From: Allorhizobium borbori
GTDB taxonomy: Bacteria > Pseudomonadota > Alphaproteobacteria > Rhizobiales > Rhizobiaceae
Assembly (NCBI RefSeq): GCF_014196535.1
Contig: NZ_JACIDU010000001.1
Coordinates: 62,001-126,000 of the forward strand
Direction of reading: 5' to 3'
DNA: 64,000 bases
In this document: positions 11,888 through 59,564 of the stretch, piece after piece
Numbering within the stretch: position 1 is the stretch's first letter
How the letters are laid out: each line of letters starts with the position of its first letter
The notes under the pieces: generated by a model
The model's database searches: none
Told to the model about the DNA's origin: nothing
What the model saw: the letters and a program-made list of their open reading frames with translations, nothing else
Made by a program: the position numbers and the translations under genes

Positions 11888-13291
11888 TCACAGCGCCGTC
11901 GACAGGTCAGACCGGGTCAACGACCGCGGATCGGCGATGACGACGCGATTGCGGCCGAGCGACTTGGCTTCATAGACTGCGCGATCTGCTCGTGTGAGGA
12001 TGGCTTTGTAATCAAGCTCACCCTGAAAAGCCGCCAGGCCAATGCTGACGGTTACCGAAACGTCCACCCCGTCGGCCACCGGTATGACCAGATTTTCGAC
12101 CCCGATCCGGATCTTTTCGGCGCGCTGCAGGCCTTGCCGCTCGTCGCATTCGATCAGGAGAACGAGGATTTCCTCACCACCATAGCGGAAGACGAAGTCG
12201 GTCTGACGCACATTGTCGTTGATGGCGGCGGCAATCAGCGAAAGGGCCTGGTCACCCGCCTTGTGGCCATAGGTGTCGTTGATGGTCTTGAAATGGTCGA
12301 CATCAATCAGGAGGACGCAAAAGCCCGATGCATTCGGTGCCTTTTGAAGATGGACTTCCCGCATCAGCACCGATGGCATGAAGCGCCGCGTCAGGAGCCG
12401 CGTCAGCGGATCCCTGCCACTCTCGATTTCGATGTGCTCGTCGAAAATGGTGTTCACCAGAAACTTGATCGAGGCGATTTCCTCCTCGATCTGGCGGGTC
12501 GTCTCACGCACATCCTCGGGATTTTCGAAGGTCAGGGCTTGCAGCCTTGGCACCAACTGGGTGTCGACCCGGTCCACGGCTGCGCGTATCCGGGCGAGCT
12601 TCGGTTCGCGTTCGAACAGGATATGGGCCTTGTGGTTCAGCCAGAGGCCAAAATCGGCCTTCCAGAGTTTGGGCAGGCTGCCAGCGGGCACGCGCTGATA
12701 GAAAGCGGCAAGAATGGCGTGCCCCCATTCCATCAGGGCAGCACGTTGACGCTCGCGCTCCATGGCGAGGTTCTGGCCGAGCAGATGCAGCCTGTAGGCT
12801 TCGGTGACGCGAACATCGACGGTGATTTCCTGCTGGTAGCTCGTTTCACGCACTTCGAGCGCAATGTCGAAGAGGGTGATGATGAAGGTCATCATATCAA
12901 CCAGTTGCTCGCGCGGCACATTCCTCTCCGCCAGATGGCGCAGGAACCAGAGCTTGAGCTTGCGCGTCGAGCGGGCCAGGGCATGCGGAGGAAAGCCGAT
13001 CCGCGCCAGCAATTCGCCGATCTGATGCTGCTCGGTAAAAAACAGGTCACCGGCCGTCGCATTCGGATCGACCAGCCGCTTGACCCATTCCACGAAGCGC
13101 CCGGCGAATTCATGACGAATATCCTCCGCATGCATCAGTTCCGCGAGTTCGGGATCGGCAAGAAGGTAGCTCCCGTAGCGCTGCCGCAAGTCGTGTTCGT
13201 GCTGGATGACGATGTCGGAAATGATCTGCCGTGTCGCAAGCGCGGTCTGGCTCACGAGCGTTCGCCAATCTTCCACGAAACGATCAGGCAT
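11888..13291 (-). CDS. Diguanylate cyclase with globin-like sensor domain (DosC-like)
   Basis: 467 residues. The N-terminal half (about 1-150) aligns by eye with the globin sensor of E. coli DosC. The middle part shares the DFGLWLNHK segment (about 213-221), and a GGDEF domain occupies about 290-455 (DPLTRLLTRRFM, LIDVDHFKTINDTYGH, active loop GGEEI at 371-375, inhibitory-site RQTD at 362-365). It should make cyclic di-GMP. The DosC proximal heme histidine, in EVHARIG, corresponds here to ELLARIG (Leu95), so heme binding is doubtful; His89 is one turn away. I chose ATG 13291 (GAGGA seven bases upstream) over GTG 13312. Confidence 0.88.
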   Translation of the reverse strand: MPDRFVEDWRTLVSQTALATRQIISDIVIQHEHDLRQRYGSYLLADPELAELMHAEDIRHEFAGRFVEWVKRLVDPNATAGDLFFTEQHQIGELLARIGFPPHALARSTRKLKLWFLRHLAERNVPREQLVDMMTFIITLFDIALEVRETSYQQEITVDVRVTEAYRLHLLGQNLAMERERQRAALMEWGHAILAAFYQRVPAGSLPKLWKADFGLWLNHKAHILFEREPKLARIRAAVDRVDTQLVPRLQALTFENPEDVRETTRQIEEEIASIKFLVNTIFDEHIEIESGRDPLTRLLTRRFMPSVLMREVHLQKAPNASGFCVLLIDVDHFKTINDTYGHKAGDQALSLIAAAINDNVRQTDFVFRYGGEEILVLLIECDERQGLQRAEKIRIGVENLVIPVADGVDVSVTVSIGLAAFQGELDYKAILTRADRAVYEAKSLGRNRVVIADPRSLTRSDLSTAL

Positions 13292-13540: not shown

Positions 13541-15991
13541 TTACTGCTGGGCGGTGGCCGGACGAACGAGCGAGGTGACGCGGCGGATGGTGACGCGGCG
13601 GTTCTGCTGCTCGGCGGCTTCCGTGCGGACCTTCAGGTAGCGTTCGCCGTAACCCTGCGTGGCGAGGTTTTCCGGCGGAATGCCGTAGACATCGGTCAGA
13701 AGGTTGGCGACGGATTCCGCGCGCTGGTCGGAGAGAACGAGGTTGGATTCGTCGGAACCCACCGCATCCGTGTGACCTTCGATCAGGAAGGTTTCACCGG
13801 GGTCGCGCTTGAGAACCTTCAGCATCGCATCGGCGACACTGCGCAGCGTGGAGGCCTGCGACATCGGCACTTCCGCACTGCCGGTCGCAAAGGTGATCGT
13901 ATCGAGGTCGATACGGCGCACCTTGTCGCGCAGACGGGCGGAGTACTTCACCTCATCCATCGTATAAACCCGCTCGACCTGCTCCACCGGCGGCTCTGAC
14001 AGGAACTCGTAATAGTTCCGGTTCGGGTTGGTCGAGGTGTCGATGATGTAATCCTGCACCGGAATGCGCAGACGCATCGGCGGCAGATCGTCACCGGGAT
14101 CGCGGAACACCGGCGGGCGCTGTTCCTGATCCGCTTCAGGTGCGAAGACGAGCAGGATTTCACGGCCATCCGGCGTCATGCGGCTACGCTGGATCACATC
14201 ACCATAGCGGTTATAGATCGTGATGAGGCGATCGCCATCCGGGCGGACAATGGTTTCGCGAACGCGGCCACGTGACAGATCCTCGTAATAGCTCTGCTCG
14301 GCGGCGCGGCTCAGGCGGCGGCGTTCATCCGAACGCACCACGATACCGTCATCCGTTTCATAGACCGTCCGGTCATCGAACCGGCGCGGCGGCTCGTAGT
14401 TCTGGGCCGCAGCACCGCCACCGGCAATCAGCGGCGCAATCAGGGCACCGAGGAAATCCGGCGCCCGATCACGACGACGACCTTCTTCCTGACGGCCGGC
14501 CTCGATTTCGTCACGACGGACCACCGGCGCCCGGCGCTGGGCGTCCGCGTCGTTGCGCGGCGGCGGCACATCATTGGCGGTCTGACGCTGGCGTTCACGG
14601 TCACGACGACGCTCGTCGCGGGCCGACTGGCCGCCGCGATTGTCGGCGTCCTTGTCGCTGTCAAGAACCGCAGCACCCTTGTCGACGGGCAGCACCACGG
14701 TGTCATCCGTCTTGGACGGATCGGCGGCTTCCTCCTTGCGCTCGCGTTCGGTACGGCGATCCTCGATCGGCGGAGCGGGACGCCGCGGCCGATCAGGGGT
14801 CGCATCCTGCTGAGCCGCCGGATCGGTGCCGGGCTGAGGCCGTGCCGGACGCGGCTGGGCATTATCACCGGGCTGCGGCGCGGGATCGCGCTGCGGCTTC
14901 TGGCCCGGCTGCTGCGCATCGATTGCCGGATCGGCACCCGGAACAGGCTTCTTCGGCGGACGCGGCTGGGCATCGTCACCAGCCTGCGGGGCGGCTTCAC
15001 GCGGCGGCTTCTGGCCCGGCTGCTGCGCATCGGTTGCCGGTTCGGCACCCGAAACAGGCTTTTTCGGCGGACGCGGCTGGGCATCGTCACCAGCCTGCGG
15101 GGCGGCTTCACGCGGCGGCTTCTGGCCCGGCTGCTGGGCATCGGTTGCCGGTTCGGCACCCGGAACAGGCTTCTTCGACGGACGCGGCTGGGCATCGTCA
15201 CCCGCCTGCGGGGCGGCTTCACGCCGTGGCTTCTGGCCCGGCTGCTGTGCATCGATTGCCGGATCGGCACCCGGAACAGGCTTCTTCGGCGGACGCGGCT
15301 GCGCGTCGTCACCAGCCTGCGGGGCAACATCGCGCCGCGGCTTCTGGCCGGGCTGCTGGGTATCGTTTGCAGGATCGGCGGCGGGAGCTGGCTTCTTCGG
15401 CGGGCGTGGCTGAGCGTCATCGCCGGCCTGCGGGGCCACATCGCGCCGCGGCTTCTGGCCGGGCTGCTGGGCGTCGTTTGCGGGATCGGCGGCTGGAGCC
15501 GGCTTCTTCGGCGGCCGCGGCTGGGCATCGTCACCAGCCTGCGGGGCAACATCGCGCCGCGGCTTCTGGCCGGGCTGCTGGGTATCGTTTGCAGGATCGG
15601 CGGCAGGAGCCAGCTTCTTCGGCGGGCGTGGCTGAGCGTCATCGCCGGCCTGCGGGGCGGCTTCACGTCGGGGCTTCGGGACAGGTTGTGCATCATTGGC
15701 AGGATCGGCAGCGGGCTGCGCCCGCTTGGGCGGACGCGGCTGCTCGTCGCCACCAGCCTGCGGCGCAGCCTCACGCTGCGGCTTTTTCTGCGGCTGGGTA
15801 TCTTCCCCCGCCTGCTTGGCGGCCTCTCGATTCTTCCGCTTCAGAAGCTGCTCTTCTTCAGGCGACAGTGGCTGCGCCTGGGCGATTTGAAACGGAGCGG
15901 TCAAATTCTCGGCGCGGGCCGGGTGACCGGCAAACCAGCCGGCCATGACCGGGACCAGTGCCGAGGCCAGCAATCTGTATTTGGTGGTCAT
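13541..15991 (-). CDS. OmpA-family outer-membrane/peptidoglycan-binding protein with tandem 37-residue repeats
   Basis: 816 residues. A signal peptide (cleavage near HPARA-ENL, residue 27) is followed by a Pro/Gln/Asp/Lys-rich region with nine tandem repeats of about 37 residues (about 73-396). Next come a charged segment rich in Arg and Glu, a hydrophobic DFLGALIAPLIAGGG segment, a central domain with YxDGD-type strands, and a C-terminal OmpA domain (about 690-805) with FATGSAEVP and the peptidoglycan-binding signature EGHTDAVGSDESN...LSDQRAESV. The C-terminal part should bind cell wall; the repeats look like an extended periplasmic spacer. ATG 15991 has AGAGGA upstream. Confidence 0.88.
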   Translation of the reverse strand: MTTKYRLLASALVPVMAGWFAGHPARAENLTAPFQIAQAQPLSPEEEQLLKRKNREAAKQAGEDTQPQKKPQREAAPQAGGDEQPRPPKRAQPAADPANDAQPVPKPRREAAPQAGDDAQPRPPKKLAPAADPANDTQQPGQKPRRDVAPQAGDDAQPRPPKKPAPAADPANDAQQPGQKPRRDVAPQAGDDAQPRPPKKPAPAADPANDTQQPGQKPRRDVAPQAGDDAQPRPPKKPVPGADPAIDAQQPGQKPRREAAPQAGDDAQPRPSKKPVPGAEPATDAQQPGQKPPREAAPQAGDDAQPRPPKKPVSGAEPATDAQQPGQKPPREAAPQAGDDAQPRPPKKPVPGADPAIDAQQPGQKPQRDPAPQPGDNAQPRPARPQPGTDPAAQQDATPDRPRRPAPPIEDRRTERERKEEAADPSKTDDTVVLPVDKGAAVLDSDKDADNRGGQSARDERRRDRERQRQTANDVPPPRNDADAQRRAPVVRRDEIEAGRQEEGRRRDRAPDFLGALIAPLIAGGGAAAQNYEPPRRFDDRTVYETDDGIVVRSDERRRLSRAAEQSYYEDLSRGRVRETIVRPDGDRLITIYNRYGDVIQRSRMTPDGREILLVFAPEADQEQRPPVFRDPGDDLPPMRLRIPVQDYIIDTSTNPNRNYYEFLSEPPVEQVERVYTMDEVKYSARLRDKVRRIDLDTITFATGSAEVPMSQASTLRSVADAMLKVLKRDPGETFLIEGHTDAVGSDESNLVLSDQRAESVANLLTDVYGIPPENLATQGYGERYLKVRTEAAEQQNRRVTIRRVTSLVRPATAQQ
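14804..15775 (-). repeat. 111-bp tandem repeat array inside the OmpA-like gene
   Basis: Nine units coding for the pattern R(E/D)xAPQAGDDAQPRPPKK followed by PxPGADPAxDAQQPGQKP. Units 2-8 are exactly 37 codons, unit 1 is 36 and unit 9 is partial. Neighbouring units are nearly identical in DNA. They fall in two subtypes, RDVAP (units 3-5) and REAAP (units 6-8), suggesting recent local duplication. Confidence 0.95.
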
Positions 15992-16044
15992 TGTGTTTCC
16001 TCTTGTACTTTGCCGCAGACCATGCGGCTTATGCAGGCTTTTTA

Positions 16045-16212
16045 ATGACGCCCCGTGATCAACCGGGTGCTTCGGCACGAGAATCCGACCTTTCCGCTGA
16101 ACTGCGCATGAACGGACGACAGGATTTCAAAGGCCTCGCCAAGGATCTGTATGGTCAGGAAAATCTCTTCACTTTCCTGAAGAAATCAAATTATCTTGAT
16201 CACAGCCATTAA
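16045..16212 (+). CDS. Possible small protein, 55 residues (weak)
   Basis: An open frame starting MTPRDQPGASARESD and ending FLKKSNYLDHSH sits between the OmpA-like gene and the amidohydrolase. Codon choice looks like the neighbouring genes (mostly C or G third bases in the middle part), and the stop is 27 bases before the next start. The ribosome site (CAGG, seven bases upstream) is poor and I recognise no family, so it may be chance. Confidence 0.25.
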   Translation: MTPRDQPGASARESDLSAELRMNGRQDFKGLAKDLYGQENLFTFLKKSNYLDHSH

Positions 16213-18005: not shown

Positions 18006-19100
18006 ATGGGGTCTAAGTACGCAGTCGAAATTTGGCGTGTCACGAAGACCTATGGCAGCGGCGATGCCGCAGTCGTCGCCGTCAACGATGTGACGCTCAA
18101 CATTGGTAACAACGAGTTCTTCACGCTGCTTGGCCCTTCGGGCTGCGGCAAGACCTCTCTTCTCAGGCTGATAGCCGGATTCGAATTTCCCGCAACCGGT
18201 GACCTGATCCTCGACGGCGAAAATATCACCGGCACGCCACCCTATAAGCGGTCGATCAATACCGTCTTCCAGTCCTACGCCCTCTTTCCGCACATGACCG
18301 TGGCCGAGAACATCGGTTTCGGCCTGAAGATGCTGAACAAGCCGAAGTCGGAAATCGAGCCGCGCGTTCAGGAAATGCTCCGGCTGGTGCAGATGGAGGC
18401 GCTGGCCAACCGGCCGGTCGCCAAACTTTCCGGCGGCCAGCAGCAGCGCGTGGCGCTCGCCCGCGCCCTTGCTCCTTCCCCCAAGGTGCTTTTGCTGGAT
18501 GAACCGCTTTCGGCGCTCGATTACAAGCTGCGCAAGGAAATGCAGGTGGAACTGAAGCGGCTCCAGGCCGAAACGGGCGTCACCTTCATCTTCGTGACCC
18601 ACGATCAGGAAGAGGCGCTGACCATGTCGGACCGCATCGCGGTCATGTCAGGCGGCAAGCTTCTGCAAGTGGGGGAACCGCGCGATATCTACAACAATCC
18701 CGCCGACCGTTTCGTCGCCAGCTTCATTGGCGAGGCCAACTTCCTGCCGGCTACGGTCGCTGCAGCCGATACCACCGGCGCTGCGCTGACGCTCGCCAGC
18801 GGCGCAACGCTGAAAGGCCCGATAGCCGACGACCTGGCCCCCGGCCAGACCGTGACGCTGATGATCCGCCCCGAACACATCCGCATTGCCGGCGGTCCGC
18901 CCTCACCGGGTGCGCTGGCCGGCACGGTGGCGGATCTCGCCTATATCGGCACCGATACCTATTACAAGGTCAGGCTTGCCGATGGCGCATCGCTTTCCGT
19001 CCGGCGGCAGAACAGGCCCGAGGATGAGCAGGATTACAGCCCCGGCGATGCGGTCGCCCTGTCGCTTCCTGCTTCGGCTCTCCGGTATCTGCAGGAGTAA
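18006..19100 (+). CDS. potA: Polyamine-type ABC transporter ATP-binding protein (PotA-like)
   Basis: 364-residue ABC ATPase with Walker A GPSGCGKTS, Q-loop TVFQSYALFPHMT, signature [15 protein letters not shown], Walker B VLLLDEPLSALD and switch His VTHDQEEAL. A C-terminal TOBE domain (about 270-360, MIRPEHIRIA and YIGTDTYYKV) is typical of the spermidine/putrescine PotA class. First gene of the potABCD-like set; the next gene starts five bases after its stop. Confidence 0.92.
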   Translation: MGSKYAVEIWRVTKTYGSGDAAVVAVNDVTLNIGNNEFFTLLGPSGCGKTSLLRLIAGFEFPATGDLILDGENITGTPPYKRSINTVFQSYALFPHMTVAENIGFGLKMLNKPKSEIEPRVQEMLRLVQMEALANRPVAKLSGGQQQRVALARALAPSPKVLLLDEPLSALDYKLRKEMQVELKRLQAETGVTFIFVTHDQEEALTMSDRIAVMSGGKLLQVGEPRDIYNNPADRFVASFIGEANFLPATVAAADTTGAALTLASGATLKGPIADDLAPGQTVTLMIRPEHIRIAGGPPSPGALAGTVADLAYIGTDTYYKVRLADGASLSVRRQNRPEDEQDYSPGDAVALSLPASALRYLQE

Positions 19101-58043: not shown

Positions 58044-59564
58044 TCAGGCTGCCGAGCGACGGCTGGCTTCGCTGTATACGACGGCGTTGGGATCACGCAC
58101 CCGTTCACGGGTCTTGAAGTCGCGCAACATGTCCACCAACCGGTCGACCTGTCCACGCAGACCATTCGTTTCGCCAGATGTTTTCTCGACCATCGCGGCA
58201 TTCTGCTGGGTGATCGTATCCATGTTGCGGATCGCGACATTGACTTCACTGACGCCAATGGCCTGATCGCGGGCCGCGGAAGCAATGCCGGTAACGATCT
58301 GGTTGATCGAGTCGATCCGTTCGATCATGCCGGTCAGGGCCTGGCCGGTCGTACTGACGAGATCGACACCTTCCTGCACCTGCGTCGAGCTTTGCTCGAT
58401 CAGGGTCTTGATCTCCTTGGCAGCGTCGGCCGAGCGTTGGGCTAGCTGGCGCACTTCCTGCGCAACGACCGCAAAACCCTTGCCGGCTTCACCGGCGCGC
58501 GCAGCCTCGACACCCGCATTCAAAGCCAGCAGGTTGGTCTGGAAGGCAATATCGTCGATCACGCCGATGATCTTGTAGACTTCGGAGGACGAATTCTCGA
58601 TCTCGGCCATGGCGGAAACGGCCTTGGTGACAACCACGCCGGAGTTTCGGGCCGCCGTCTGCGTGTCGCGTACGACCTTGGAAGCCTGTTCGGCGCTCTG
58701 CGCCGTTTGACCGACGCTGATGGAAAGCTGCTGGAGCGCGGCTGAACTCTCTTCCACGCCTGCCGCCTGCTGGGCGGTGCGCAATGAAAGATCGTCCACG
58801 GCGGAAGCGATGGCATCCGCACGACCAAGGATTTCGCGGGACGTCTGGCGAACGCCGGCAAAGGACCGACGCAACCCTTCGAGCGTCATATTATAGTTGG
58901 CCGCCATTTCCTGGAAATTTTCCGGCAGGTCGGTGGTCATCGGCGTTTCGAAATCGCCGCTGGCTAGGGCTTCAAGACCCGCGCGCAGCGTATCGAGCGC
59001 GAGCTTCTGATCCGCTTCGAGCTTGAGCCGTACGGCTTCTGCCGTCTTGCGCTCGGTTTCCAGCGCTTCGATATAGGTGGAAATGGAATAATCCATGTCG
59101 ATATTGGCAGCCTTGACGATCGCCACAATCTTCTCGGCGAGACGCCGGGCATGCTGCTTGCCGAAGAAGAAAGGCCAGTGCTTGTCAAGGACAGCGTGCA
59201 CGAGGCCGGCGACGACGAGCGAATAGGCGCCGATATACCACTGCGGCTCGAGACCGATGCGGGCATGTGTCTTGCCGATCATGGTGACGCTGCGAACATA
59301 ATCCATGTCCAGTTCAGCGCCTGCCAACCGCTCCCAATGCTTTTCCTGCAGCCCCTTGGCCGCGTTCATATGCGTCTTGTCACGGAAGAACCTGCTGAGC
59401 GCAGGAACCTTGGAAACCTTGTTGTAGAAGTATTCGAGCGTGCCGCCAATGTGTTCGCGGATCGTCGGTTGTATCTCGCGCAGGGTCTGACGCGTATTGG
59501 CATCGAATTCAATGAAGTCGAGACGCTCGCTTAACGCTTTTTCAGCTTCACCGGCCATCGACAT
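58044..59564 (-). CDS. Soluble globin-coupled chemoreceptor (HemAT-like)
   Basis: 506 residues without membrane segments. The N-terminal protoglobin-type sensor (about 10-175) includes the proximal-His motif [19 protein letters not shown] (H100), which should bind heme and sense oxygen. A coiled-coil and HAMP-like linker (about 180-260) lead to a methyl-accepting signalling domain with EIAFQ-type tip ([31 protein letters not shown]). It lacks the C-terminal pentapeptide of the other two receptors. ATG 59564 is used, with GGGAG about four bases upstream. Confidence 0.9.

Follow-up and report, generated by a model that had tools for sequence, protein, structure and literature searches.

The window, by which we mean the whole 64,000-nucleotide stretch of Allorhizobium borbori DNA analysed here, encodes a 467-aa protein with the architecture of DosC, namely a globin, the DosC middle domain and GGDEF (Table 1). 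Each of the three corresponding Pfam matches, of which that to Protoglobin covers residues 42–155, lies above its curated cut-off. A longer reading frame starting at GTG 13312 is possible; the alignment with each of the seven orthologues described below begins at the MP(D/E)R of the ATG start. A tRNA-Thr gene lies convergent with the cyclase gene, 44 bp past its stop. About 250 bp upstream of the cyclase gene is the end of an 845-aa ORF, likewise on the minus strand (13541–16078, −), which we take to be OmpA-like from our own reading of its sequence. This ORF carries a long array of Pro/Ala/Gln/Asp-rich repeats (AAPQAGDDAQPRPPKK...). The GC content of the cyclase gene is 59.4% as compared with 62.0% for the window, a difference that is not decisive on horizontal transfer of the gene.

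Table 1 Features of the predicted heme-less DosC-type cyclase gene, with positions counted within the window.
Feature	Position	Strand	Details
DosC-type diguanylate cyclase CDS, predicted heme-less	11888..13291	−	467 aa + stop
Shine-Dalgarno-like GAGGAA	13298..13303	−	6 nt before ATG 13291
Globin domain, residues 1-157	12821..13291	−	Pfam Protoglobin, model, fold match to DosC
Leu95 codon, place of DosC proximal heme ligand His98	13007..13009	−	Alignment and fold register
His89 codon, earlier candidate ligand	13025..13027	−	Asp in 7/7 orthologues
Tyr39-Gly40 codons, at DosC Phe42-Tyr43, distal pocket	13172..13177	−	Alignment
Codons 62-66: Phe62, Arg65, Phe66 at DosC Leu65, Ala68, Met69, distal pocket	13094..13108	−	
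DosC_2nd middle domain, residues 177-285, His220-Lys221 kept	12437..12763	−	Pfam PF21118, 60.8 bits
GGDEF domain, residues 293-449	11945..12415	−	Pfam PF00990, 138.4 bits
I-site RQTD (RxxD), residues 362-365	12197..12208	−	Alignment
Active-site motif GGEEI, residues 371-375; GGEEM in 7 orthologues	12167..12181	−	

As a preliminary description of this DNA had proposed, the protein aligns with E. coli DosC, and the segments DFGLWLNHK (residues 213–221), ARIG, RQTD and GGEE on which that proposal was built are all present. For the globin, phmmer aligned 149 residues with DosC (4zvb) at an offset of 3, and in the multiple alignment residues 4–152 run against DosC with zero gaps in either direction. 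Within this ungapped alignment Leu95 falls on the proximal His98 of DosC and Gly40 on the distal Tyr43, which bears out both of the replacements suspected earlier. A full-length model reached a pTM of 0.46 and leaves the arrangement of the domains relative to one another undefined; a fold search with it returned cyclase or GGDEF entries among the matches listed (best 50), and the globin was therefore folded alone. The resulting AlphaFold model (pLDDT 89.6, 7 aligned sequences) matched DosC chain 4zvb_B over 149/149 residues in VIA, with an rmsd of 1.7 Å and a Z of 21.3, so that the sensor globin fold is present in the predicted model. Model residues 3..151 lie on chain residues 6..154, the same register as in the sequence alignment, residue-level equivalence being read from the equal ranges of model and chain. 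A structural alignment had been suggested as a check on whether His89 occupies the proximal position; this register puts Leu95 there instead. His89 pairs with DosC His92, which is present in DosC and is not its heme ligand, and it stands six residues from Leu95, more than the single helical turn originally described.

The one named orthologue among the matches listed in a contig scan (at least 80 loci, narrowed to those matching the query at the N-terminus) was that of Rhizobium lusitanum JHI1118 (64%). We searched the 148 genomes of the genus to which R. lusitanum belongs with a profile made of the window protein and this orthologue, at a threshold of E 1e-10, and found matches in seven of them, one in each and always of the putatively heme-less form, with the remaining 141 genomes giving none; in the genus of the window the gene is present in one of three genomes. 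The same profile recovers the canonical DosC of the window's own genome at 9.6e-32, so a canonical DosC in the seven Rhizobium genomes would probably have been seen. A survey of Rhizobiaceae orthologues for the Leu, as had been recommended, showed it to be particular to the window protein: all seven orthologues have Met at position 95, together with Asp at 89 and Arg at 40. No stops were found inside the window copy or the seven orthologues, which all align as whole ORFs.

Outside these eight proteins the proximal His is kept throughout, in 32/32 other proteins of the family, 34/34 from wider searches and 4/4 from an order-wide sample (70/70 in total), as compared with 0/8 in the clade (one Leu, seven Met). 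The family set comprised 34 hits, from which G139 (no locus) and the window protein were omitted; the 34 further proteins came from class, phylum, plasmid and contig searches, with L160 left out as a repeat of L003, the canonical DosC of the window genome, and L232, which repeats L061, stands outside the count of four. L183–L188, which are under the Pfam cut-off, missed the hmmsearch threshold of E 1e-10, and rows with no locus were left out. The set contains near-duplicates (L069/L073 and L156–L158) as well as L167, which has no N-terminus, and for family, class, phylum and order the genomes sampled are draws from larger groups. A quick maximum-likelihood tree was calculated for 74 proteins with the six pocket columns excluded and rooted at the midpoint; in it the eight proteins form one clade (SH-aLRT 100) with a single change of His state. 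The stem of this clade is long, at 1.41 changes per column, and because of this and of the midpoint root we are unsure of the exact place of the clade and of its nearest canonical relative among DosC proteins. L003 sits on a different branch, its proximal His present, and the window protein is by sequence its paralogue; the same genome would thus possess an O2-sensing cyclase besides the predicted heme-less one. Plasmids were considered as carriers of the latter form and set aside, as 84 PLSDB records matched, all at <60% identity, and the three sequences compared keep His.

Loss of the proximal ligand is accompanied by a remodelled pocket. Six pocket positions differ from E. coli DosC in 8/8 clade members: Phe42 to Tyr, Tyr43 to Gly or Arg, Leu65 to Phe, Ala68 to Arg, Met69 to Phe, and His98 to Leu or Met. 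The window protein reads Y, G, F, R and F at the first five of these; Arg occupies the Tyr43 position in 7/8, and Arg at Ala68 and Phe at Leu65 and Met69 are common to all eight. Phe42, Tyr43, Ala68 and Met69 are described as heme-pocket residues of DosC (PMC5549716), while Leu65 was taken as one from titles in a reference list. When only columns conserved at 90% or more in other DosC-type proteins are counted, those replaced throughout the clade amount to 5/12 in the globin versus 3/55 elsewhere (Fisher p 0.003, for rows related by descent), and the conserved globin columns kept in the clade include W69, Q88, G92, A96, R97 and P101. The pocket letters that we checked are uniform across the seven Rhizobium orthologues. 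Among DosC-type proteins outside the clade Tyr43 is found in 62/65, Tyr at DosC position 42 in 1/65 and Phe at position 69 in 4/66; in the order-wide sample, two of four proteins have Ile at 62 with the proximal His kept, and one of the four (L235, His kept) has Y39, G40 and G65 at the edge of its match. Since variants at DosC 42, 43 and 69 also occur in His-keeping proteins, the distal-pocket changes alone are no proof of heme loss. The only His invariant in the clade globin are H103, which is also His in 34/66 other proteins, and H119, which would lie in the helix-G dimer-interface stretch, described as ~30 Å from the heme (PMC12805357). The clade globin is thus likely, as far as its sequences go, to have no conserved alternative His of use.

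Despite these replacements, the Rhizobium orthologues show purifying selection on their globin. Over 21 pairs of the seven proteins, the median dN/dS was 0.090 for the globin, 0.115 for residues 1–95, 0.039 for residues 96–155, 0.059 for the middle domain and 0.103 for GGDEF, values that are approximate as the median dS is 0.6–1.1; the highest single-pair value, 0.619, belongs to residues 1–95. Identity of the window protein to the orthologues is likewise uneven, with 41–52% in residues 1–95 and 73–77% in residues 96–155. In PccGCS, helices G and H are described as the dimer interface (PMC12805357), and residues 96–155, the most conserved part, would hold the corresponding helices in our model. 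We infer that dimer and output function are what selection maintains. The divergence of the pocket half between the window protein and the orthologues argues against all eight proteins having one and the same strictly kept ligand; with pocket letters uniform within the seven Rhizobium orthologues, a ligand could still be shared there.

The cyclase half had been described as looking active, a view on which the end of its signature motif has a bearing. All of R302, D330, F334, K335, N338, D339, D347, L350, R369, G371, G372, E373 and E374 of the A-site are kept in 8/8, as is the RxxD I-site (R362–D365), and the middle-domain His-Lys pair is retained at the place of DosC His223/Lys224. The motif itself ends differently from GGEEF: its last letter, DosC F378, is Ile375 in the window protein and Met in the seven orthologues, as against Phe in 62/65 others. 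DosC F378A is reported to have zero activity in in vivo tests (PMC5549716); Ile or Met is a milder change. Judged from these residues cyclase activity is likely, though with Ile as the last letter of its GGDEF motif the enzyme could have little activity or none. A further change in the GGDEF domain concerns residues 425–426, which are Glu-Leu in 8/8 and His-Pro in 62–63/64 other DosC-type proteins.

Taking the sequence comparisons and the model together, we assign a probability of roughly 0.8 to the reading that this is a heme-independent DosC-type diguanylate cyclase that either arose from heme-based sensors or is their sister, and in which heme binding was lost. The earlier suggestion of a globin recruited for a non-heme function is supported at the sequence level by the clade-wide loss, the six pocket positions and the purifying selection. 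The protein probably responds to a signal other than oxygen, or operates heme-free. Its globin, lacking heme, would not sense O2, CO or NO and would still serve as a dimerising N-terminal module; a conformational input would run via helices G and H and the middle domain to the GGDEF dimer, which would make c-di-GMP with RxxD product inhibition retained. The cyclase may be driven by a different ligand held in the remodelled cavity or by a partner protein, or it may have no driver at all, the output then being constitutive. Because the dimer half is the most conserved, we lean slightly towards an input through it rather than through one conserved ligand.

Other explanations deserve weighing against this one. 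That the true proximal His was simply missed, through faulty alignment or sequencing, might be suspected from a Protoglobin score barely above the cut-off (26.6 versus 25 bits), but the ungapped ARIG-anchored alignment, the seven other genomes and the fold alignment all contradict it, and we consider the chance of an artefact negligible. His89, which precedes the normal ligand position by one to two turns, might instead hold the heme, and it does share a predicted helix (81–97) with Leu95. The Asp found there in every orthologue, the pairing with a DosC His that is not the ligand (3/66 other DosC-type rows have His at this position beside the true proximal His) and a fold register that leaves Leu95 at the proximal site nevertheless make such ligation very improbable, and this part of the preliminary description is not upheld.

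Other heme proteins with methionine as a ligand are known, and the Met95 of seven of the eight clade members would in principle be able to coordinate iron, so that heme could be bound through Met95 or another residue with the window Leu95 as a local exception. Leu95, however, cannot coordinate iron, and the distal Phe, Tyr and Leu have changed as well, alongside the clade-wide Arg at Ala68 and Phe at Leu65 and Met69; even with the precedent of HGbRL, a sensor globin of unusual ligation described as having its proximal and distal sites swapped (PMC4476040), we find this improbable. A decaying sensor, which lost heme by drift and whose cyclase is constitutive or dying, would agree with the patchy presence of the gene, with GGEEI or GGEEM in place of GGEEF, and with residues 1–95 diverging faster than 96–155. 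Against decay stand the intact ORFs of the window copy and all seven orthologues, median dN/dS values of 0.04–0.12 in every part tested (single-pair maximum as above) and pocket letters identical across seven Rhizobium species, and we regard it as unlikely.

A heme-independent cyclase of this type can be placed beside several known proteins. With DosC/YddV/EcGReg of E. coli it shares the domain order, globin fold, middle-domain His-Lys, GGDEF A-site and RxxD I-site, and differs in having no proximal His, six changed pocket positions and GGEEI, at ~33% identity overall. RsbR of Bacillus (2bnl), a stressosome protein with a STAS output and not a cyclase, also has an N-terminal signalling sensor globin without heme residues and was among the fold matches (TMq 0.59–0.62 and Foldseek E 0.014–0.046, as compared with 0.86 and 2.3e-6 for DosC 4zvb_B), whereas the output of the window protein is GGDEF, with zero Pfam match to STAS. 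The N-terminal globin of RsbR is termed non-haem (PMC4976288). MabR/PucR-type regulators of Actinomycetes are described as combining a non-heme globin with a GGDEF-fold domain in one protein; unlike here, their GGDEF is without catalytic motifs, a DNA-binding domain is attached and the globin is of the 2/2 type (PMC11617747). Photoglobins and bilin-binding globins are likewise described as globins without bound heme (PMC10151467), but theirs are linked to B12 or bilin proteins, and the 467-aa protein gave zero Pfam match for a B12-binding domain. Precedent for heme loss therefore exists in RsbR-type and other non-heme globins; in the open literature searched, a DosC-type cyclase without heme appeared in none of the titles or opening abstract lines.

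Gene neighbourhoods were compared between the window and the orthologous loci. The Rhizobium loci (L191–L197) share neighbours with each other that differ from those of the window, and that presumably include flavin-reductase-like, TetR-like and MFS genes and an ABC transporter, by our own reading of the ORFs. One ABC ATPase of the window (18006–19100) matches two Rhizobium loci at >45% identity; with its neighbours it has, as we read it, the look of a spermidine/putrescine-type transporter, and the match was taken as generic and not as shared synteny. In the genus of the window species itself, the 845-aa upstream ORF is matched at 46–49% over its C-terminal part in G001 and G002, and the 16-kb stretches of these two genomes contain neither the tRNA-Thr nor the neighbouring gene that we take to be nitronate-monooxygenase-like. 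Same-genus synteny was accordingly dropped as a test of gene insertion versus loss, the two cases being indistinguishable where the flanks are missing.

Globin-coupled sensors are presented in reviews as serving O2 sensing in c-di-GMP signalling (PMC8846402), and domain-based annotation would label the window protein an O2-sensing diguanylate cyclase. By its sequence it is a DosC-type protein that lacks the defining heme ligand and keeps the rest, and the clade, with its heme pocket apparently dismantled and its fold and dimer half conserved, suggests where the inference of O2 sensing can fail. In the seven Rhizobium genomes an O2-sensing role assigned from the domain name is probably wrong, because the putatively heme-less form is their sole DosC-type profile match. 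The clade would also serve as a naturally occurring comparison without heme for signal transfer in DosC-type proteins.

Four Protoglobin matches occur in the genome from which the window comes, two with His (the canonical DosC cyclase and a chemoreceptor) and two without it (the window cyclase and a chemoreceptor). The His-less globin chemoreceptor, L002 (1453–3045 of G000:C13), which we take to be an MCP, has Glu at the place of the proximal His. Its matches at 50% identity or more are without His in 18/18 cases, its own copy included (15 Glu, 1 Ala, 1 Cys and 1 Gln), and such His-less L002-type proteins (orthologues L201–L217) occur in 18 of 151 genomes searched; among 13 weaker matches, including L001, 11 keep His and two have Arg, the counts covering 30 loci and L001. 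Together with the cyclase clade, these chemoreceptors suggest that globin sensors in this family lost heme on at least two occasions, and with two kinds of output. With Arg at the Ala68 position in 8/8 and at Tyr43 in 7/8, and Phe at Leu65 and Met69 in 8/8, it is possible, if doubtful, that the heme cavity was rebuilt for another metabolite, perhaps anionic or aromatic, and that globin sensors of both outputs, c-di-GMP and chemotaxis, came to exist in this family in a heme-free form next to the heme-bound one. A HemAT-like globin chemoreceptor that keeps its His (THARIG) is encoded in the same window as the cyclase (59057–59542, −). Two further Protoglobin matches, L218 and L219, are ~34–36% identical to L002 and have Arg at the proximal place (VRQRIG).
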